Made by a program: the position numbers and the translations under genes | The notes under the pieces: generated by a model | Seen by the model: only the letters and a program-made list of their open reading frames with translations | Told to the model about the DNA's origin: nothing | Databases searched by the model: none | Assembly: GCF_001894745.1 (NCBI RefSeq) | Contig: NZ_BBYF01000008.1 | Span: 176,179 to 240,178, forward strand | From: Paenibacillus sp. NAIST15-1 | GTDB taxonomy: Bacteria > Bacillota > Bacilli > Paenibacillales > Paenibacillaceae | DNA length: 64,000 bases | Reading direction: 5' to 3' | In this document: one piece after another, positions 20,384-30,093 of the stretch | How positions within the stretch are numbered: position 1 is the stretch's first letter | Layout: every line of letters begins with the position of its first letter

Positions 20384-20409
20384 GTTTCACAGTTCTGCTT
20401 TCAGGGTAT
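20384..20409 (+). promoter_or_regulatory. Sigma-B-type promoter before ytxG-like gene
   Basis: GTTTCA, 14-nt spacer, GGGTAT. This matches the B. subtilis sigma-B consensus (GTTTaa-N12-14-GGGtAt) closely. The ytxG homologue in B. subtilis is a sigma-B-dependent general stress gene, and sigB is encoded 8 kb away. Confidence 0.7.
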
Positions 20410-20476
20410 TTATTCATAATTGGTATACGGAAAAATGTGTTATGCTTGGGAATGCGGAGAAAGGCGGTATTCATCT

Positions 20477-21073
20477 ATGTTATTGGAAATTAGTGCATTA
20501 CTTGCAGCAGCAGCGTTTGCGGTGCTGGTGTTCTATCTGATTCAAACACTGCTGTCAGCCAAGCGCTCTCTGGAGCGGGCTGCCGATACCCTTGAGCAAG
20601 TACAGCAGACCGTGAATTTATTGAGTGGCGACTTGCAAGGTGTCGCCAAAAATGCGAATGAACTCTCTCTAGAGCTGTCTGAGCAATTAAAGAAGATGGA
20701 GCCAGTGATGGACTCTGTTCAACATGCCGGTGAAGCCTTGAACGAGATCTCAATCGCTGCGAAGCAGGTATCAGTAGGACTGGTTAAGGGGGTACGTCGA
20801 GCCGCAGGGAGATTTGAACGTAAGCCCACCCCTGATAGACGAGTGTCTAAGGAGCATCAGGCAGCAGCGTCTGCGCCTGTATCAGCACCGCTGCAGGCGG
20901 ATACTGCTGTGATAACACAGGAGCCACTGGGTGAAGCCGAGCATAAGCAAGAACGTGAACAATCACCGCAGGGACAAAGCCATTCCCATTCCACAGCTAG
21001 CCAACAGCAGGATTGGAAGGAATGGGTCGATATTGGGACGAAGCTGTGGCAATTGTGGAGACAGCGCGCATAG
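20477..21073 (+). CDS. ytxG: YtxG-like DUF948 general stress protein
   Basis: A 198-residue protein with one N-terminal transmembrane helix (about residues 3-24), a long coiled coil (about 25-100, ERAADTLEQVQQTVNLLSGD...) and a Gln/Ala/Pro-rich low-complexity tail. This is the DUF948 layout of YtxG, a general stress protein of unknown mechanism. ATG 20477 was chosen as the first start that begins directly before the helix. A sigma-B-type promoter lies about 70 nt upstream. In B. subtilis ytxG and ytxH are adjacent; here the YtxH-like gene lies on the other side of the sigB operon. Confidence 0.8.
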   Translation: MLLEISALLAAAAFAVLVFYLIQTLLSAKRSLERAADTLEQVQQTVNLLSGDLQGVAKNANELSLELSEQLKKMEPVMDSVQHAGEALNEISIAAKQVSVGLVKGVRRAAGRFERKPTPDRRVSKEHQAAASAPVSAPLQADTAVITQEPLGEAEHKQEREQSPQGQSHSHSTASQQQDWKEWVDIGTKLWQLWRQRA

Positions 21074-21245: not shown

Positions 21246-22391
21246 ATGATGAACGTTCTCGTCGTTGATGACAATCCGACGAATGTCATGCTCATTCGGG
21301 AAATCCTTCGTAAAGCTGGCTATGACGGAGTGCAGACTGCTTCGTCAGCCCATGAGATGTATCAAGTTCTTGGGATGGATGGGCCTCTTGGGCCTATGTA
21401 TGTACCGGATATTGATCTTATTTTATTGGATATGATGATGCCGGAGATTGATGGACTGGAAGCTTGCAGCACGATCCAACAATACTCTGAGCTTCGGGAC
21501 ATTCCGATTATTATCGTAACGGCGATTGGGGATTCCAATATGCTCGCAGAGGCATTGGATGCGGGTGCGGTTGATTATGTCACGAAGCCGATTAACAGGG
21601 TGGAGCTGCTGGCTCGAATCCGGCTAGCGCTGCGCTTGAAGCGGGAGAAGGATTGGCATAAGGAACGTGATCGCCATATTCGCGATGAATTAAGCTTGGC
21701 CGCGAAGGTGCAGAGCTCTGTGTTGACAGAGCCTTATCAAGATGAACATATTACGATCAAGGCACTATATCAGCCTTCTGAGGAGCTGGCGGGAGATCTG
21801 TATGCTTGGTTCCCGCTGGGCCAAGGCAGATATGGAATTATCATAATCGATGTTATGGGGCACGGCGTATCCTCTGCGCTGCTGTGTATGTTCATTGCTT
21901 CCGTTCTACGGGACGCCGTTATGCAGATCGAACAGCCGGATCTTGTGCTTAAGCGATTGAATACGAAATTCCATCAGCTTCATATGAACGGGAATTTAAT
22001 GCTCTATTATATGACTGCATTATATGTGGTTGTTGATACGAACAAGGGATGCATCCAGTATGCGAACGCAGGACACCCTCCTGGCGTTGTCATGATGGAG
22101 GACGGTGAGCTCATAACCTTGGAATCTACCGGATATCCAGTAGGCATGTTCCCAGAGCTTGAAGTAGAGACCAAAGAAGTAAAATGCGACTCACGTGCTC
22201 GAATTGCAATGTATACGGATGGGTTAATGGAAACGGCAGGCAACAGCGTGGAAGAGGCTATGGAGCGCATTGCCAATATTCTTCGACACGAGAAGACGTT
22301 GCAGAGCAGTTCATGGGACGAGCTGTTTGCACCTGGTTCTGATGAGGACAGTGAGGATGACAAGTGTCTGATTTGGGTGGATGTTCATTGA
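21246..22391 (+). CDS. rsbY: Receiver-PP2C phosphatase, RsbY-like
   Basis: A 381-residue response regulator. The N-terminal receiver (about residues 1-125) has VVDDN, the phospho-acceptor Asp62 in ILLDMMMPEIDG, and the conserved Lys in VTKPI. The C-terminal PP2C/SpoIIE phosphatase domain (about 165-378) has the metal-binding segments AGDLYAW and DVMGHGVSSAL and ends DDKCLIWVDV. In Bacillus cereus RsbY of this design dephosphorylates RsbV-P and so frees sigma-B, activated by the kinase RsbK. Here the RsbK-like gene follows after 20 nt, and rsbV/rsbW/sigB lie in the same direction, supporting that role. Confidence 0.9.
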   Translation: MMNVLVVDDNPTNVMLIREILRKAGYDGVQTASSAHEMYQVLGMDGPLGPMYVPDIDLILLDMMMPEIDGLEACSTIQQYSELRDIPIIIVTAIGDSNMLAEALDAGAVDYVTKPINRVELLARIRLALRLKREKDWHKERDRHIRDELSLAAKVQSSVLTEPYQDEHITIKALYQPSEELAGDLYAWFPLGQGRYGIIIIDVMGHGVSSALLCMFIASVLRDAVMQIEQPDLVLKRLNTKFHQLHMNGNLMLYYMTALYVVVDTNKGCIQYANAGHPPGVVMMEDGELITLESTGYPVGMFPELEVETKEVKCDSRARIAMYTDGLMETAGNSVEEAMERIANILRHEKTLQSSSWDELFAPGSDEDSEDDKCLIWVDVH

Positions 22392-22411
22392 TTTAGAAGG
22401 AGGAGCAGACA

Positions 22412-25400
22412 GTGAAGTTACGCACGAAATTAATCGCTGGCTTCGTTCTGTTCATGCTTATCATATCCGGACTTGGCTGGGTGTCTTATGATCGCATGAG
22501 CAGCTTGCAGCAGGATCTGGATCAGATTTATACGGACAGCTTCCGCAAAGTGGAACTTGCCTTTTTGATTCGGGACGACATGGACAATATCGCCAGCGTG
22601 CTGGTGACCGATATGCTAAACCCGAATGTTAACGGCGAAGAACTGTTGCAAAAAGGGAAGGTTTACCGTGATGATATTGTTAAATCGTTCAGGGAGTTGA
22701 CGGCACAATATTCAACGGCGCAAGAGAAGAAGCTCATCGAGCTGGCGATACGCGATTGGGACAAGTACGACGAATTCGTCAACAAGTCAGTAGAGCTCAC
22801 CACCAAGAATAAATATGAAGAAGCCAACGCATTGCGAAATAAAGAGGGATTGGAATATCAACGCAACTTGAAAAACAGTGTGGCCGATTTGGCCAATCAT
22901 CATGAGATGTCGATTGACAATCAGGTGCTGGAAGCGAAGAAGCATTACGAGCAGTCGATTACTTTGACGGCCGGTATCATGGTGCTGGGGCTTGTCGTTT
23001 CCTGCGCGATTATGTTGTGGGTCATCCCGAGTGTGACACGGAATTTGAATACGATGTCCATCATGATGCGCAGTCTTGCCCGTGGAAGGCTTCGTATTGT
23101 ACGTAAGCTTGAGCCGCATACGAATGATGAGATTGGAGAAGTCATTCAAGTGTTCAAGCGGATGGCAGAAGACTTGGAAGCACGCAAGAAGAATGAGGAA
23201 TTGTATCGGAAGGCTCAAGAAGAGCAGGCATGGATCGATGGAAATGCAGCACGTGTTACAGAGCTTCTGAATGGAGCCGCTACATTGAATCAGGTTGGGC
23301 AGATGTTCATTAGCGAGTTCGTGCCGACACTTGGTGGACAATATGGCGCCCTGTATATTCGAAATGAGACGGATCAACCAGATGTATTCGAACTGTTCGG
23401 TACTTATGCAGCTACTGACGATTTGAAGGCTGAGCGAACAATGGTTGTTGGGAAAGGCCTGCTCGGTCAATGTGTCGTGGATGAGAAGCCAATCATTATA
23501 AGCGACATGAAGGATTGCTCCATTCGAATTGAATCGGGCGTATGTCAATCTCAACCGATTGAGCTTATCTTATTCCCGATTATGTTCGAACGCAGAGTGA
23601 TTGCGGTGTTAGAGATGGCATCATTGACGAAGATGTCACCTGTACAGCATCGACTGCTCGAAAAGCTCGCACAGAAGCTCGGGGTCATCGTGCATACGAT
23701 CTCTGGACGCTTGCGTGTAGAGGAATTGCTGCGTGAGTCACAGGCGCTTACCGAAGAACTGCAATGCCAGTCTGAGGAACTGATGACACAACAGGAAGAA
23801 TTGAAGCGCTCGAACGAGCATCTGGAATCGCACACAGAAGCATTGAAGCGTTCTGAGGAGATGCTCCAGCGTCAACAGGAAGAACTGGAACACTACAATA
23901 CGGAACTGATCGCGAAGACACGTGCGCTGGAAGAACAGATGCTGGCAACCCAAGAGAAGAACGAAGAGCTCGAAGGGGCGCGAACGATATTGGAACGCCA
24001 GACATTGCAGTTGGCCTTGGCTTCGAAGTACAAGTCTGAGTTCCTCGCTAATATGTCTCATGAACTGCGTACTCCGCTTAACAGCCTGCTGGTGCTGTCC
24101 CAATTGCTGGCGGAGAATAAGGAAGGGAACTTGGGACAGAAGCAGGTCGAGTATGCGCGTACGATTAACATGTCCGGTTCGGATCTGCTTAAAATGATTG
24201 ATGAAATCTTGGATTTGTCCAAGATCGACGCAGGCAAGATGCAGTTGAATTTTGAAACTGTCTATTTGAGCGAATTGGCCTCCTTTATGAGCGACAGCTT
24301 TGAGACAATTGCAGAGCAGAAAGGGCTTGAGTTCAAGGTAGAGATAGATCCAGATCTGCCAAGCTCCCTAGTAACTGATGGGCATCGAGTGAAGCAGGTT
24401 GTACGCAATTTGATTGGCAATGCATTTAAATTCACAACGAAGGGCTCAGTAACCCTTCACATTGCGAAGGCGAAGCCGGAGCAATTGCCTTCCCCGCTTC
24501 AGGAAGCGGATGAGCCTTATTTGGCGATACATGTTGTAGATACCGGGATCGGCATTCCGAAAGATAAACAAGATTTGATCTTCGAAGCGTTCCAGCAGTT
24601 GGATGGTACAACTAGCCGAAATTACGGCGGCGCAGGGCTCGGTCTGTCCATCAGCCGAGAGTTGGCAAGACTGCTTGGCGGCAAGCTGCAGCTGGTTAGT
24701 CGAGAGAAGGAAGGCAGTACGTTTACCTTCTTCCTTCCGATGAAGGCGGTAGAGCCTTCATCAATTCCAGTTAACTCCACCGTTGCTTTGTATGAAAAGG
24801 CGATCGCAGAAGCCCAAGCGGCACTAACCGTAGAGGGCGAAGAGGGGCATACATCAGAGGAACGCAGTAAGCTCGTCAAGCCTCATCTGCCGCAGGTATC
24901 TGCGAACCATGAGGGTATGCCTCTTACTGCTTGGGAAGAAGCGTTGCTCAAGGAAGTCGCTGTTTCTGAAGAAGTGGACGGACATAAGTGGCCATTTGGA
25001 GAGAAGAAGCTGCTGATCGTTGAAGATGATGGTCCGCAGCGACAGTCTCTAATTGCCTTAATTGAAGGAGCGGACGTAGCCGTTACCGCGGTCTCTACCG
25101 GGACGGAAGCACTCAAGGTACTCGGGGAAGAGAAGTTCGACGGCATGGTGCTGGATTTGCTGCTTCCTGATATGACAGGTTTTGAATTAATGGATGAAAT
25201 TAGTCACCACTCCCGAATCCGTCGTATCCCGATCATTGTATACACTGGCAAACTGCTGGATGCGAAGGAAGAGACGGAACTGAAAAAGCGTGCACAGAGC
25301 ATCATTATTAAGGATGTGAAGTCTCCTGAACGTCTGCTGCAAGAAACGATGATTCTCTTGAAGCGTTCGGAGGAAGTTCAGCTAAGCGATGAAAAAGAAA

Positions 25401-25798
25401 ACCAGGGACCAAGTGATATGCTGCTGTCAGGCAAGCGGGTACTGCTCGTCGATGATGATGTGCGCAATGTATTTGCGCTATCAAGCGTGCTAGAGCAGTA
25501 CGATATGAATATCGTGTATGCTGAAAATGGACGCGAAGCACTTGAAGCATTGGATGGGGAAGAGAATTTCGACCTCGTTCTCATGGATATGATGATGCCG
25601 GAGATGGATGGCTATGAAGCGATGCGCCGCATTCGCGAACAGCCTCGATTCGAGAAGCTGCCGATCATAGCACTGACGGCGAAGGCGATGAAAGAAGATC
25701 GCAATAAGTGCATTGAGGCAGGAGCGTCAGACTATGTCAGCAAGCCATTTCAGACGGAACAGCTGCTTTCATTGATGCGAGTATGGTTATATAAATAA
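22412..25798 (+). CDS. rsbK: Hybrid sensor histidine kinase, RsbK-like
   Basis: An 1128-residue membrane kinase. In order: transmembrane helix (about residues 8-28), extracytoplasmic CHASE3-like helical domain, second helix (184-204), HAMP (to about 260), GAF (about 275-430), long Glu/Gln-rich coiled coil (about 440-535), HisKA with His550 in SHELRTPLNS, HATPase (GTGIGIP-type and GGAGLGLS motifs), then two receivers with Asp915 and Asp1059. This is the architecture of B. cereus RsbK, which phosphorylates the RsbY receiver. GTG start after AGGAGGAG. A CheR-type methyltransferase follows, and the coiled coil is the natural place for methyl-accepting glutamates. Confidence 0.92.
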   Translation: MKLRTKLIAGFVLFMLIISGLGWVSYDRMSSLQQDLDQIYTDSFRKVELAFLIRDDMDNIASVLVTDMLNPNVNGEELLQKGKVYRDDIVKSFRELTAQYSTAQEKKLIELAIRDWDKYDEFVNKSVELTTKNKYEEANALRNKEGLEYQRNLKNSVADLANHHEMSIDNQVLEAKKHYEQSITLTAGIMVLGLVVSCAIMLWVIPSVTRNLNTMSIMMRSLARGRLRIVRKLEPHTNDEIGEVIQVFKRMAEDLEARKKNEELYRKAQEEQAWIDGNAARVTELLNGAATLNQVGQMFISEFVPTLGGQYGALYIRNETDQPDVFELFGTYAATDDLKAERTMVVGKGLLGQCVVDEKPIIISDMKDCSIRIESGVCQSQPIELILFPIMFERRVIAVLEMASLTKMSPVQHRLLEKLAQKLGVIVHTISGRLRVEELLRESQALTEELQCQSEELMTQQEELKRSNEHLESHTEALKRSEEMLQRQQEELEHYNTELIAKTRALEEQMLATQEKNEELEGARTILERQTLQLALASKYKSEFLANMSHELRTPLNSLLVLSQLLAENKEGNLGQKQVEYARTINMSGSDLLKMIDEILDLSKIDAGKMQLNFETVYLSELASFMSDSFETIAEQKGLEFKVEIDPDLPSSLVTDGHRVKQVVRNLIGNAFKFTTKGSVTLHIAKAKPEQLPSPLQEADEPYLAIHVVDTGIGIPKDKQDLIFEAFQQLDGTTSRNYGGAGLGLSISRELARLLGGKLQLVSREKEGSTFTFFLPMKAVEPSSIPVNSTVALYEKAIAEAQAALTVEGEEGHTSEERSKLVKPHLPQVSANHEGMPLTAWEEALLKEVAVSEEVDGHKWPFGEKKLLIVEDDGPQRQSLIALIEGADVAVTAVSTGTEALKVLGEEKFDGMVLDLLLPDMTGFELMDEISHHSRIRRIPIIVYTGKLLDAKEETELKKRAQSIIIKDVKSPERLLQETMILLKRSEEVQLSDEKENQGPSDMLLSGKRVLLVDDDVRNVFALSSVLEQYDMNIVYAENGREALEALDGEENFDLVLMDMMMPEMDGYEAMRRIREQPRFEKLPIIALTAKAMKEDRNKCIEAGASDYVSKPFQTEQLLSLMRVWLYK

Positions 25799-25846
25799 CA
25801 GGTAAGCAATATGTTGACATGATGAATGAAGGAGCAAGGATAAGAT

Positions 25847-26713
25847 ATGAACGGAAACGGGCTCGGTTTACATGATGAGAGAAGAAGGCCCCAGGATTCG
25901 GACCGAGAACGCATTGAGATTGAATTGCTGTTAGAAGGGGTTTATCGAGTTTATGGTTATGATTTCCGGGACTATGCGTATCCTTCGCTCAAACGGCGCA
26001 TTTGGCATCAAGTGCATGAGGAAAAGGTAGACACGATTTCGGAGCTGCAGGGCCGAGTACTCTATAATCGGGAATGCTTGCAGCGTTTTGTCCGCAGCCT
26101 GTCGATCCCCGTTACCGAAATGTTCCGGGATCCCTCCATGTTCTTGGCATTTCGTCAACAGGTCGTCCCTATGCTGCGTACGTATCCGTATATTCGGATA
26201 TGGCATGCGGGTTGCTCGACAGGAGAGGAAGTATACTCCATGGCGATACTGCTTCATGAGGAAGGGCTGTATGAGAAGACCAGGCTGTATGCAACCGATA
26301 TGAATCCGCTATCGCTGCAAAAAGCCAAAGAAGGCGTATGCCCGATGGACAAAATGCGCACATACACCAAAAATTATTTGGAGGCGGGCGGGACAAGCTC
26401 TTTCTCCGAATATTATACGGCTTCTGGAGAGGGCGTTGTCATTCATCCTTACTTGCGTAAAAATGTAATTTTTGCAGAGCATAACCTGGCAACAGATCGA
26501 TCCTTTAATGAATTTAACGTCATCCTATGCCGCAATGTAATGATTTATTTTAATGAGCCGCTGCGCAACCGGGTTCATGATCTTTTCTATGAGAGCTTGG
26601 CGCCACTAGGTGTGCTTATTGTCGGAGGCAAGGAATCCTTGCATTTTACAGGGAGAGAATCTCAATACGAGGAGATCGATCGTAACGAGAAGATTTATCG
26701 TAAAATACGATAG
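25847..26713 (+). CDS. rsbM: CheR-type methyltransferase, RsbM-like
   Basis: A 288-residue SAM-dependent glutamate methyltransferase of the CheR family. The helical N-terminal domain is followed by a Rossmann domain with [17 protein letters not shown] (SAM binding, about residues 120-135), [15 protein letters not shown], and [16 protein letters not shown]. No chemotaxis genes are nearby. In B. cereus the CheR-like RsbM methylates RsbK and dampens sigma-B activity, and the gene order here (kinase, methyltransferase, rsbVW-sigB) supports the same. No CheB-type demethylase gene is visible in the cluster. The start is an ATG at 25847. Confidence 0.88.
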
Positions 26714-26724
26714 GAGGCACAATT

Positions 26725-27933
26725 GTGAACACCTTGGAACCAATCAATATTTTGCTCGTTGACGATAGGCGCGAGAATTTACTTGCACTTGAGGCCGTGT
26801 TGTCCGAGGAAAGCTATCGCTTGGTCAAGGCTACTTCAGGCGAGGAAGCTTTGCGCCACTTGATGAAAGAGGAATTCGCCGTTATTGTGCTGGATGTTCA
26901 AATGCCAGGCATGGATGGGATCGAGACGGCCAAATGGATTAAGGCTCGCGAGAAGACGAAGAATATTCCGATAATATTCGTATCCGCGAACTATAAGGAA
27001 ACCGAGCATTTATTTGCTGGATACTCAGCGGGTGGGGTTGACTATATGGTCAAGCCATTCGTCCCCCATATTTTGAAGTCGAAGATTCATAGCTTCGTTG
27101 GTATATTCCTGGCACAGAAGCGGCTGCAGGCGCAGAAGATGCTTCTCCATCAGAAGACGAAGGAACTTGAGCGGATGAACAGTGAGCTGGCAGCTGCAAA
27201 GGAAGCAGCGGAGCGTGCGGCACTTGCTAGAACACAGTTTTTAGCAATGATGAGCCATGAGATTCGAACGCCGATGAACGGGGTGCTCGGAATGGTTGAT
27301 CTGCTGCTCGACACTGAGCTGACAAGTGAGCAATCGAACTATGCGGAGTTGATCCGCAAGAGCGCCGATACACTGATCAGGACGATTAATAATATTCTTG
27401 ATTTCACCAAGATGGAATCAGGCAAGCTGGAATTAGAAGAATTTCCGTTCGATATGAACTCGCTCATTACAGAAGTTTATGAGCTGTTCATGGTCGAGGC
27501 GAATAAGCGGGATTTGACCTTGTCGTATTCAATGGATGAGGATGTGCCATCGTTATTGTATGGAGATATGCTGCGCGTCAGGCAGATCCTTATTAATCTC
27601 GTAGGAAATGCAGTCAAATTTACGAATCGTGGGAATGTCAGCATTTATGTGTCCATTATCGAAACGAAGCGCACGGGGGAAGGCAATAAGTTCCATGTCC
27701 AGTTCGATGTACGGGATACAGGAATCGGTATTCCAGTCGATAAGATGGAAGGGCTGTTCCAGCCATTCGCACAGCTTGACTCTTCTATGAACCGCAAGTA
27801 TGGCGGAAGTGGATTGGGGCTTGCCATTTGCAAGTCGCTTGTCCAATTGATGGACGGGGATATTCGTGCCATACCGGTACCAGAAGGGGCCCTATTTACA
27901 TTTGACGTATGGTTGAAGGAATGTGGCGAGTAG
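26725..27933 (+). CDS. Receiver-histidine kinase hybrid
   Basis: A 402-residue soluble protein with an N-terminal receiver (Asp57 in [13 protein letters not shown]), a short coiled coil, HisKA (His178 in [10 protein letters not shown]) and HATPase ([23 protein letters not shown]). It has no membrane helix and no separate output domain. It starts at a GTG after TAGGAGGC, 11 nt behind the methyltransferase gene. Its place between rsbM and rsbV suggests that it feeds a second signal into the phosphorelay, perhaps phosphorylating RsbY or the RsbK receivers. That role is inference; I know of no fixed name for it. Confidence 0.9.
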
Positions 27934-27954
27934 CCGTCGCATTCTTTTCCCATT

Positions 27955-27980
27955 GTTTCGATTTAGATGATGAAGGTTAT
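27955..27980 (+). promoter_or_regulatory. Sigma-B-type promoter before rsbV
   Basis: GTTTCG, 14-nt spacer, GGTTAT, 50 nt before the rsbV start. An autoregulatory sigma-B promoter at this position is known in B. subtilis and B. cereus. It shares the GTTTC -35 and exact spacing with the ytxG and ytxH sites here. Confidence 0.65.
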
Positions 27981-28029
27981 TTACCAATAAAGTACATTTA
28001 ACAAGTTTACCTATGTATAGGAGAGGAAC

Positions 28030-28353
28030 ATGATGAACGGAAAAAAGTTTGCAGTTAAGACGGTACAGCAAGAGGGACAAGTAATTGTCCAGACTTGTGG
28101 AGATTTGGATTTGGCAGCAGCGAAAGAGTTTCGTTCCACGATGGAACCGATTGTGAACGATGCGAACACAGAGCTTACCTTAGATCTGAAAGAGCTGACG
28201 TATATTGATAGCACAGGGATTGGAATCTTGATCTCGATATTGAAGATGCGTCATGAGCAGAAGTCAGCTTTCCGTATTGTAAATGTACCGACACATGTCC
28301 AAAAACTATTTGATATGACAGGTATTTCGAAATTTCTGACCCCACAAGCCTAA
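28030..28353 (+). CDS. rsbV: Anti-anti-sigma factor RsbV
   Basis: A 107-residue STAS-domain protein. The phosphorylatable serine is Ser61 in YIDSTGIGIL. Unphosphorylated RsbV binds RsbW and releases sigma-B; RsbW phosphorylates it, and the RsbY phosphatase reactivates it. ATG 28030 (or the adjacent 28033) follows a GGAGAGG site. It heads the rsbV-rsbW-sigB unit behind a sigma-B-type promoter. Confidence 0.95.
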   Translation: MMNGKKFAVKTVQQEGQVIVQTCGDLDLAAAKEFRSTMEPIVNDANTELTLDLKELTYIDSTGIGILISILKMRHEQKSAFRIVNVPTHVQKLFDMTGISKFLTPQA

Positions 28354-28386
28354 CAAATGAACGATGAAAGGGACTGAATCAGAATT

Positions 28387-28845
28387 ATGGAACACGCAAG
28401 AGAATGGAAGCGCGTTAAGTTATCATTGCCAGCACAAGCCGAATATGTGGAGTTGGCACGGTTGACTTTGTATGGCATCGCAAGCCGTATCGGATTCTCC
28501 TATGAGGATATAGAAGATATGAAGGTAGCGATTTCGGAAGCTTGCAATAATGCAGTGCTATATGCGTATGATTCGCAGGGTGGAGTCGTTGAAGTACTGT
28601 TTGAGGTTGCTGAGGATGAGATTGGGATCATCGTACAGGATGAGGGAGCGAGCTTTGATGCAGCAAGCAAGACCAGTGGGGTGGAAGGCTTGCATGACAA
28701 GCAGCTTGAAGATATTCAGGCCGGTGGTCTTGGATTTTATTTAATGCAGGCGTTGATGGATGAGGTTGAAGTGATGAGCGTCGATGGTCACGGCACCGTT
28801 GTGAAGATGAAGAAGCGCCTGCAGCGAAGCGGGGAACTTCTATGA
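28387..28845 (+). CDS. rsbW: Anti-sigma factor / serine kinase RsbW
   Basis: A 152-residue GHKL-type kinase. The N-box EACNNAVLYAY (about residues 55-65), the DEGASFD segment and the GGLGFYLMQALMD lid/G2 region match RsbW. It binds and blocks sigma-B and phosphorylates RsbV on serine. Its stop overlaps the sigB start by ATGA, so the antagonist and the sigma factor are translationally coupled. Confidence 0.95.
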   Translation: MEHAREWKRVKLSLPAQAEYVELARLTLYGIASRIGFSYEDIEDMKVAISEACNNAVLYAYDSQGGVVEVLFEVAEDEIGIIVQDEGASFDAASKTSGVEGLHDKQLEDIQAGGLGFYLMQALMDEVEVMSVDGHGTVVKMKKRLQRSGELL

Positions 28846-29612
28846 GTGCTGTCCCTCAACAACATTCATCCGAGGAAGCAACACGGCTCATACATGAATA
28901 TCAAGCTACAAATGATAATGAGATTGCAACGATCCTCATTCAGAGATACGATCCCATGGTCAAGATGGCCGCAGGCAAGATTTCACGCAACCGTCCGGAC
29001 TTGTATGAAGATTTGATGCAGGTCGGCAATATGGCATTGATTCGCTTATTGAAGCAATTCGATAGTTCGTTAGGTGTTCCGTTCGAAGCTTATGCGATGA
29101 AAAGTATGATTGGGCATATGAAGAACTTCTTGCGGGACAAGTCATGGTATATACAAGTTCCACGCCGGATTAAGGAAAAAGGTGCGCTCGTACAGCAGAC
29201 CATTGATGAGCTGACAATGAAGCTTGAGCGGTCGCCTAATGTAAATGAGATTGCGGAGAAGTTGGAATTGTCCGTCGAAGAAACTGTCGAAGTTCTAGCC
29301 GGTCGAGAGTGCTATCATTACGTCTCCTTAGATACCCCATTATCGCAGGATGAGAGTGCTGCGACATTGGGAGAGCTGATTCGCTCTGAAGCCGACGATT
29401 ATGAATCGGTGGAACGCAAGATGGATCTGATGGAGGCTATGAAGGAACTCAAGCCGGAAGAACAAAATGTATTGGCACTTATATTTAATGAAGGATTATC
29501 ACAGCGCTCGGCTGCGGATCGTCTCGGCATTTCCCAAATGAGCGTATCGCGCATCCAGCGGCGTGCAACGGAGAAACTTAAGAATATATTGACATCGAAT
29601 AATTCTTCGTAG
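28842..29612 (+). CDS. sigB: General stress sigma factor SigB
   Basis: A 256-residue group 3 sigma factor. Region 2 includes DLYEDLMQVGNMALIRLLKQF and YAMKSMIGHMKNFLRDKSW. Region 3 starts with VPRRIKEKGALV. Region 4 ends with NEGLSQRSAADRLGISQMSV. This is the SigB type within the SigB/F/G family, and the partner genes rsbV and rsbW confirm SigB rather than the sporulation factor SigF. A terminator follows immediately. Three promoters of its predicted specificity lie in this window. Confidence 0.95.
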   Translation: MSAVPQQHSSEEATRLIHEYQATNDNEIATILIQRYDPMVKMAAGKISRNRPDLYEDLMQVGNMALIRLLKQFDSSLGVPFEAYAMKSMIGHMKNFLRDKSWYIQVPRRIKEKGALVQQTIDELTMKLERSPNVNEIAEKLELSVEETVEVLAGRECYHYVSLDTPLSQDESAATLGELIRSEADDYESVERKMDLMEAMKELKPEEQNVLALIFNEGLSQRSAADRLGISQMSVSRIQRRATEKLKNILTSNNSS

Positions 29613-29709: not shown

Positions 29710-30093
29710 CTATTCCTTCTTCAACTCGTCCGCAATTTCCTCTGCTACGTCTGCAGATGCTTCCTTCAACTGATTTGCAGTGTTGGCTGTTGCTTCCTTT
29801 ACGGTTGCAGCGAACTCCTTGGATGCTTCTTTCACGCTGCTAACGACTGCACCCGCTTTTGATCCAACCGTTTTTACGGTTTCAGCTGTGCGGGATCCAA
29901 GATCTGTCGCCATTTCTTTTGTTTTGCCGCCTACTTGCTGTGCCTTATCGCTTATATCTGAGCGCAGCTCGCGTCCGGATTTCGGCGCAAGCAGCAGAGC
30001 TGCAGCCGCTCCTATCGCGCCCCCAATGAGAAGTCCCTTTACAAATGTGTTGCAATCCATTTTTGCGTTATTGCATTCTGTGTTTTGACTCAT
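29710..30093 (-). CDS. ytxH: YtxH-like general stress protein
   Basis: A 127-residue YtxH-family protein. A short N-terminal segment with two cysteines precedes a glycine/alanine-rich helix (LLIGGAIGAAAALLLAPKSG, about residues 20-40), the family hallmark with the APKSG motif. An alanine-rich amphipathic repeat region follows (K-E-A/T-V/A heptads), resembling LEA-type stress proteins. B. subtilis YtxH is sigma-B controlled. Here a GTTTCA-N14-GTGTAA promoter lies about 50 nt upstream. The gene converges on sigB. Confidence 0.88.
   Translation of the reverse strand: MSQNTECNNAKMDCNTFVKGLLIGGAIGAAAALLLAPKSGRELRSDISDKAQQVGGKTKEMATDLGSRTAETVKTVGSKAGAVVSSVKEASKEFAATVKEATANTANQLKEASADVAEEIADELKKE

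Follow-up and report, generated by a model that had tools for sequence, protein, structure and literature searches.

The 64,000-nucleotide stretch of DNA analysed here (the window; Paenibacillus sp. NAIST15-1, contig NZ_BBYF01000008.1, positions 176,179 to 240,178) carries at positions 21246-29612 seven genes in the order rsbY-rsbK-rsbM-RHK-rsbV-rsbW-sigB, where RHK denotes a Rec-controlled histidine kinase. On the evidence of genome comparison, RHK is the conserved third member of a cassette that it forms with the sensor kinase RsbK and the methyltransferase RsbM. We predict, with a probability of roughly 0.52, that, in the manner of the Leptospira kinase LvrB, it is controlled through its receiver and links RsbK to the phosphatase RsbY on the way to activation of the sigma factor SigB. 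The prediction draws chiefly on a natural series of gene losses in related genomes and on the occurrence of the same three genes away from sigB.

The window belongs to a genome of 6.77 Mb, whose genus includes Paenibacillus alvei DSM 29. An earlier note on this DNA had described seven co-directional genes, and seven intact co-directional open reading frames (ORFs) are indeed found:

21246..22391, + strand: rsbY, receiver plus PP2C (SpoIIE) phosphatase, 381 amino acids (aa); ORF, Pfam, aligned residues
22412..25798, + strand: rsbK, membrane hybrid kinase, 1128 aa; Pfam, aligned residues
25847..26713, + strand: rsbM, CheR-type methyltransferase, 288 aa, adjoining rsbK; Pfam
26725..27933, + strand: RHK, Rec-controlled histidine kinase, 402 aa; Pfam, aligned residues, model
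26893..26895, + strand: codon of the RHK receiver acceptor Asp57; aligned rows
28030..28353, + strand: rsbV, STAS anti-sigma factor antagonist, Ser61; ORF, Pfam, aligned residues
28387..28845, + strand: rsbW, anti-sigma factor kinase; ORF, Pfam, NCBIfam
28842..29612, + strand: sigB; ORF, NCBIfam best match, genome comparison

Pfam assigns to the first four products REC with SpoIIE/PP2C, a HAMP/GAF/HisKA/HATPase/two-REC sensor kinase, CheR_N with CheR, and REC with HisKA and HATPase, and to the last three STAS, HATPase_c_2 and sigma regions 2-4. All catalytic residues are in place in RsbK, in RHK and in both domains of RsbY (receiver and phosphatase), as is the RsbV serine. In RsbY, the acceptor Asp and three PP2C metal-binding Asp positions are kept in 139/139 aligned rows, window included. 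RsbK has the layout 4HB_MCP_1-HAMP-GAF-long signalling helix-HisKA-HATPase-REC-REC, with His 550, Asp 915 and Asp 1059 as key residues; the sensor domain that had been called CHASE3-like is 4HB_MCP_1. Its His and last-receiver Asp are kept in 92/92 rows and its middle-receiver Asp in 88/92, and across 88 loci the signalling helix shows good conservation, with a mean identity of 0.781. The locus is an RsbK/RsbY/RsbM-type SigB module, a reading of the earlier note that both the Pfam domains and the catalytic residues uphold.

Of 197 genomes from the family Paenibacillaceae, SigB was detected in 181, and 140 of these sigB loci were read besides the window, chosen among the matches listed and with genera g16 and g17 left out. 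Gene calls relied on BLAST bit thresholds applied to ORFs, by which a broken gene may count as absent, and seven of the loci end at contig edges, where genes may be hidden. RHK is present at 99 loci. The complete order Y-K-M-RHK-V-W-B (initials standing for the Rsb proteins and SigB) occurs at 88 and is therefore no peculiarity of one assembly, the outcome that the earlier note had named as a refutation. The remaining arrangements are V-W-B with a divergent rsbY (31 loci), Y-RHK-V-W-B (6), Y-M-RHK-V-W-B (4), Y-V-W-B (3), V-W-B (3), Y-K-M-V-W-B (2), Y-W-B (1), all genes but an RsbW call (1, L056) and Y, V, W and B without K, M or RHK (1). A set of 80 named loci, which overlaps with the unnamed set, was found via RsbM: 76 are complete, three lack RsbK (P. 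arenosi, P. assamensis and Paenibacillus sp. HW567) and one starts at a contig end. Since they were chosen by RsbM, these loci cannot show its loss.

The RHK of the window consists of REC (aa 9-121), HisKA with His178, and HATPase, with Asp57 and His178 intact. Within the window's genus the protein measures 396-414 aa and keeps this layout, which agrees with the earlier remark that it has no output domain; 72 of the 99 relatives have a longer form (540-580 aa), with a second, C-terminal receiver in the single one tested (L034) and in the consensus of 30 aligned. At two loci in one genus RHK reaches 673-679 aa, and the one of these that was tested contains a PAS insert; L057 and L121 each have the gene as two separate ORFs. 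His178 is conserved in 180/180 rows and Asp57 in 174/180, a row set that includes the window and counts some genomes in both the named and unnamed sets. The six exceptions, in which Asp57 is deleted or replaced by Asn, are exactly the six RHK genomes without RsbK and RsbM at the locus. In mean identity the RHK receiver (0.846) is second of the segments compared, after the dimerisation and histidine phosphotransfer (DHp) domain of RsbK (0.899) and ahead of SigB (0.829).

These exceptions form part of a natural loss series, which was placed on a tree built on SigB, RsbW and RsbY. Local RsbK was lost alone twice, in a four-species clade and in HW567; RsbK and RsbM were lost jointly twice, in L218 and in a clade of eight; a single loss of RHK alone is seen in L058 with L059. 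In L218, RHK is full-length and its acceptor Asp is replaced by Asn. Five members of the clade of eight keep the RHK kinase core only (255-308 aa, its start overlapping rsbY), and RHK is gone in the other three, namely L210, which branches first, and L212 with L037, which nest among the receiver-less members at weakly supported nodes (0.48-0.86). Overall, in six genomes without RsbK and RsbM the RHK receiver is deleted (five) or has lost its acceptor Asp (one) and the kinase core survives. In these six, no RsbK-type kinase was found genome-wide at E<=1e-70 or 1e-90 and no RsbM at 1e-60.

The idea that receiver decay follows from the loss of local RsbK by itself was considered and rejected, because five genomes of this kind keep RsbM and intact RHK receiver residues, and each has a distant RsbK-type kinase. 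The distant kinase was shown in 4/4 members of the four-species clade and in HW567, the latter searched with the distant kinase and not with local RsbK. The one tested (L238) lies away from sigB and reads CHASE3-HAMP-GAF-HisKA-HATPase-REC with the RsbK signalling-helix pattern, which is the layout of Bacillus cereus RsbK; those of the other four match it over nearly the full length. Kinases of this type that lie away from sigB also include L247-L256. Within the window's genus the distant kinase occurs in 6/19 genomes, four without RsbK and two with it. Ratios of nonsynonymous to synonymous substitution rates (dN/dS) of 0.000-0.024 for the RHK receiver in the four-species clade (SigB 0.009-0.074) indicate purifying selection in the absence of local RsbK. 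After receiver loss the RHK core stands at 0.14-0.23, against 0.04-0.11 in the other groups compared, and far below 1. The order of loss thus appears to be sensor and methyltransferase first, then the RHK receiver and last the RHK core, with RsbY staying; this is the order that a relay from the sensor to the RHK receiver, from there to the RHK core and on to RsbY predicts.

The second line of evidence comes from genomes in which the cassette is unlinked from sigB. Outgroup genera with sigB were at first read as lacking the cassette, and this reading was rejected, as RsbM is present elsewhere in 11 of the 15 genomes searched and an RHK-like match lies within 2 kb of it, away from sigB, in all 11. 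At the six of these loci that were read, the RsbK tail, RsbM and RHK are contiguous, and the two read at full length hold a whole RsbK-RsbM-RHK with neither RsbY nor sigB adjoining. RHK in the one tested (L273) reads REC-PAS-HisKA-HATPase-REC. In three of the four outgroup genomes without RsbM, no RHK match was found at 1e-75. Because the trio stays contiguous away from sigB, RHK belongs with RsbK and RsbM and is no mere addition to the sigB operon; the label of an added component, which the earlier note had given it, also sits badly with its presence at 99 of the 140 sigB loci. Three outgroup genomes (G004, G047 and G058) possess second RHK-like kinases (L261-L263), the L263 copy lying directly after a second RsbK-like tail with no RsbM between them.

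Across the class, RsbM was detected at E<=1e-50 in 39 of 250 genomes, 18 of them outside the family; a separate protein search covered the best 120 of at least 7999 candidates and says nothing on distant taxa. In all eight of the other-family loci read, the gene before RsbM matches the RsbK C-terminus. RsbY follows RsbM convergently in four, a receiver-LytTR protein is found in one, and three have an RHK-type receiver (53-57% identical) on a different PAS-PAS-HisKA core. A constant receiver on a changed core lends independent support to the view that the RHK receiver is the partner of RsbK. The three loci concerned (L285, L286 and L288, from Bacilli, about 1.6-3.6 kb) read rsbK-rsbM followed by REC-PAS-PAS-HisKA-HATPase, an arrangement that would perhaps wire the same sensor to another pathway. 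The PAS-PAS core presumably resembles sporulation kinases, to judge by its H-box. Tentatively, and short of an even chance, RsbK-RsbM-RHK might be a portable sensing cassette whose constant part, the RHK receiver, gathers phosphate from one or more RsbK-type sensors tuned by methylation and governs whatever core is fused to it, feeding RsbY and SigB in Paenibacillaceae and, through PAS-PAS-HisKA in other Bacilli families, driving another pathway, possibly the sporulation relay.

The proposed sequence of events is as follows. In unstressed cells RsbM would hold RsbK off by methylating its signalling helix, which is what has been reported for B. cereus. Under stress, RsbK would autophosphorylate and pass phosphate to Asp57 of the RHK receiver; the phosphorylated receiver would tighten the coiled-coil helix running into the kinase core, as shown for Leptospira LvrB, and so release autophosphorylation at His178. 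Phosphorylated RHK would then phosphorylate the RsbY receiver, and RsbY would dephosphorylate RsbV, which would free SigB from RsbW. SigB would likely boost rsbV-rsbW-sigB from its own promoter, and no SigB promoter signal is seen for the sensor block. Distant RsbK-type kinases would likewise pass phosphate to RHK, which would serve as a collecting point. The direct transfer from RsbK to RsbY of the B. cereus type is, we infer, the step that RHK takes over.

The predicted structure of RHK (AlphaFold) is compatible with such a mechanism: a single helix (residues 114-195) joins the receiver to DHp, with receiver helix 5 running uninterrupted into DHp in this moderate-confidence model. The best matches in a fold search are the kinase cores of GacS and RetS, and LvrB (8vc9) is matched over its full length at 17-19% identity. 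Inspection by hand did not find in RHK the heptad register of LvrB relative to the His, and no claim is drawn from it.

Several observations weigh against the relay. The loss pattern amounts to four independent events, two against two, for which the exact chance is 1 in 6, and 'absent' in that pattern depends on search thresholds. Distant RsbK-type kinases occur in some RsbK-bearing genomes and are absent from others. The sister species L058 and L059 keep RsbK and RsbM without RHK (none at E<=1e-75), and B. cereus RsbK is described as phosphorylating RsbY directly (PMC4574943); RHK is therefore not obligatory. The RsbY acceptor Asp is kept in all 36 loci with rsbY and no cassette at sigB, which means that RsbY is open to other kinases. 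In 4/92 rows, one of them a gap, RsbK has no Asp in its middle receiver. Differences in the RsbY recognition helix track phylogeny and not the presence of RHK; the motif pair PTN..IRE and AMN..VQE, tried as a sign of RHK dependence, was rejected since it follows one genus with and without RHK. On the structural side, LvrB ranks only sixth in the fold search, with an rmsd of about 26 and a different domain placement, and the model itself is only moderate (pLDDT 77.7, pTM 0.48). Lastly, the genome G014 (L264; 90% complete, 280 contigs) has an RHK-like REC-PAS-HisKA-HATPase protein with an intact receiver, and RsbM was found neither in the 504 bases before that gene nor genome-wide at 1e-60, RsbK-type kinases not having been searched there; a second RHK-like kinase stands apart from RsbM in three further genomes, the G004, G047 and G058 mentioned above.

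Some of these points favour other arrangements. RsbK and RHK might each phosphorylate RsbY in parallel, the RHK receiver being a separate input, for example from other kinases or from feedback. Such an arrangement would suit L058, L059 and the RsbY-adjacent loci of other families, where RsbK occurs without RHK, as well as the persistence of RHK without local RsbK in 10/140 loci and the intact receiver of G014. It leaves unexplained why a dead receiver occurs, within the 99 RHK loci, solely where neither an RsbK-type kinase nor RsbM is found, and why other families retain the receiver next to RsbK-RsbM on a changed core. Parallel action is less likely than the relay. The second input suggested in the earlier note is possible, but the relay gives the better fit to the order of loss. 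The same receiver data could be read from the side of methylation: RsbM would modify the RHK linker helix in addition to RsbK, and the receiver would be an inhibitory reader of that mark, as in B. cereus RsbK, where receiver and methylated helix act together (PMC4574943). Receiver fate does track RsbM among the 99 loci (93 with RsbM all keep the residues, the six without it never do), and RsbM-bearing loci show a well-conserved RHK linker helix. We nevertheless regard this as unlikely. The conserved residues of the linker are partly those general to HisKA kinases, the linker falls far short of the RsbK signalling helix in length, and G014 keeps the receiver where RsbM was not found; moreover, RsbM and the RsbK-type kinase also go together in the genomes tested, so that the two effects are inseparable.

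The idea of a phosphate sink, also raised in the earlier note, fares worse. As a brake, RHK would drain the RsbK signal either as a sink or as a phosphatase of RsbY, and the protein does lack a predicted effector domain and carries an H-E-x-x-T motif, which goes with phosphatase activity in HisKA kinases. The part that would form the sink, the receiver, is the one deleted in five genomes, and the core is kept beside rsbY without RsbK under the dN/dS of 0.14-0.23 given above. As the core survives there without receiver or RsbK, a pure sink fits poorly, and a brake of either kind is improbable. The relay from RsbK through RHK to RsbY is the favoured reading.

The transcription of the locus bears on the proposed feedback. 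Three further elements were located:

27915..27948, + strand: hairpin with a T-rich tail between RHK and rsbV, terminator-like with a weak tail; hairpin scan
27955..27980, + strand: SigB-type promoter GTTTCG-N14-GGTTAT upstream of rsbV; promoter scoring
20384..20409, + strand: SigB-type promoter GTTTCA-N14-GGGTAT upstream of a DUF948 (YtxG-like) gene; promoter scoring

A SigB-type promoter scoring at least 9 lies upstream of rsbV in 59/91 RsbK-bearing loci versus 7.9% of simple shuffles. Upstream of rsbY there is little or no signal (12/91 at the same score versus 10.1%). The hairpin has 14 pairs, and such sites number 13 in the stretch against 6.5 expected; a sigma-70 promoter scan of the stretch yielded 14 against 14.2 expected. 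Since a SigB-type promoter and a hairpin separate RHK from rsbV, transcription probably runs in two separate units, one for the sensor block and one for rsbV-rsbW-sigB, and of the operon assumed by the earlier note the co-directional row stands and the single unit probably does not. The rsbV-rsbW-sigB block is likely self-activating via its own SigB promoter. The YtxG-like (DUF948) gene is likely a SigB target too, judging by the promoter upstream of it in 79/90 relatives versus 10.2% of shuffles. The YtxH gene was also tried as a target and rejected (18/90 at a score of at least 9, shuffles 6.9%). The module is bordered by a YtxG-like (DUF948, 20420-21073) and a YtxH-like (29710-30093) gene, as it is in many relatives. 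Scans of the window with Rfam (gathering scores) and for tRNA gave no match.

The assignment of the sigma factor and its antagonist calls for some care. RsbW scores 170 bits against NCBIfam PRK04069 (cut-off 145, above) and 147.5 bits against TIGR01924 (cut-off 155.05, below). SigB reaches 217 bits against TIGR02941, its best match, which is below the curated equivalog cut-off of 315; it is called SigB because of its synteny with rsbV and rsbW. No other SigB candidate appears in the top five sigma matches of the genome, the other four being, by names read from the ORFs, SigF in a spoIIA-like operon, SigG in a sigE-sigG-like pair and two RpoD-like factors. One of the latter (G000:C5:405283-405966, L004) is a second RpoD-like sigma factor of 298 aa, beside the 376-aa one at L005. 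The genome has three STAS matches (SpoIIAA, one within a 595-aa frame, and RsbV), and this search found no RsbR- or RsbS-type stressosome proteins, in line with the B. cereus design, for which the earlier note mentions the lack of stressosome parts. A genome-wide PP2C search gave four matches above cut-off, RsbY being the best. Elsewhere in the family, L033 (12.9-kb locus, 3.8-Mb genome) keeps RsbY, RsbW and SigB, and RsbV, RsbK, RsbM and RHK were not called between RsbY and RsbW; as no RsbV was called, its SigB might be locked by RsbW.

Modules of this general kind are already known. In B. cereus, RsbY receives its phosphate from RsbK, whose signalling helix is methylated by RsbM and whose receiver is inhibitory (PMC4574943). 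The Paenibacillus locus shares with that system a GAF and signalling-helix hybrid kinase, a CheR-type methyltransferase, a receiver-PP2C phosphatase, RsbV-RsbW-SigB and the lack of a stressosome (PMC4574943, PMC12848376, PMC7522486). It differs in adding RHK and in having all genes in one row, and the window RsbK is set apart from the described layout by 4HB_MCP in place of CHASE3 and by two receivers in place of one. The RsbRST and RsbQP routes of Bacillus subtilis employ the same RsbV-RsbW-SigB core; unlike them, the present module would receive its input by two-component phosphotransfer. The paper on RsbK-type kinases in Gram-positives by De Been et al. 2011 reportedly mentions Paenibacillus.

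Among the literature matches listed, only one paper deals with RsbK and SigB in Paenibacillus, on the basis of genome comparison. According to its available text, rsbK, rsbY and rsbM occur in two Paenibacillus genomes and orphan RsbK-like kinases in B. subtilis and relatives, and that text gives for the Paenibacillus calls neither a receiver-kinase partner nor gene order, losses or order of action (PMC9847131). A relay from a kinase to a receiver-kinase and into a sigma-factor partner switch is reported from Leptospira, where LvrA phosphorylates the N-terminal receiver of LvrB, a kinase composed of REC, DHp and a catalytic ATP-binding (CA) domain, which acts on LvrC, a receiver protein of the switch (PMC13269768). 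LvrC differs from RsbY in being a receiver-anti-sigma protein, and the accessible text mentions no methyltransferase or PP2C phosphatase (PMC13269768). RHK shares the REC-DHp-CA architecture, and at 17-19% identity no orthology with LvrB is claimed. Among the literature matches listed, no title or abstract opening names a receiver-kinase in a sigB module, LvrB being nearest, and no report joining RsbK/RsbM, a receiver-kinase relay and SigB in one system was found among these matches. RHK as a conserved relay element, backed by the loss series, would thus be the new part.

It is in B. cereus that the two-component route to SigB has been worked out in detail. If the relay is true, SigB of Paenibacillus would be under a kinase-to-kinase relay tuned by methylation. 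The natural reduced series, from the full locus through loci without RsbK and with the kinase core only to RsbY alone, lets the job of each part be tested, and the exchange of a receiver between kinase cores would illustrate how a sensor is connected to a new output.

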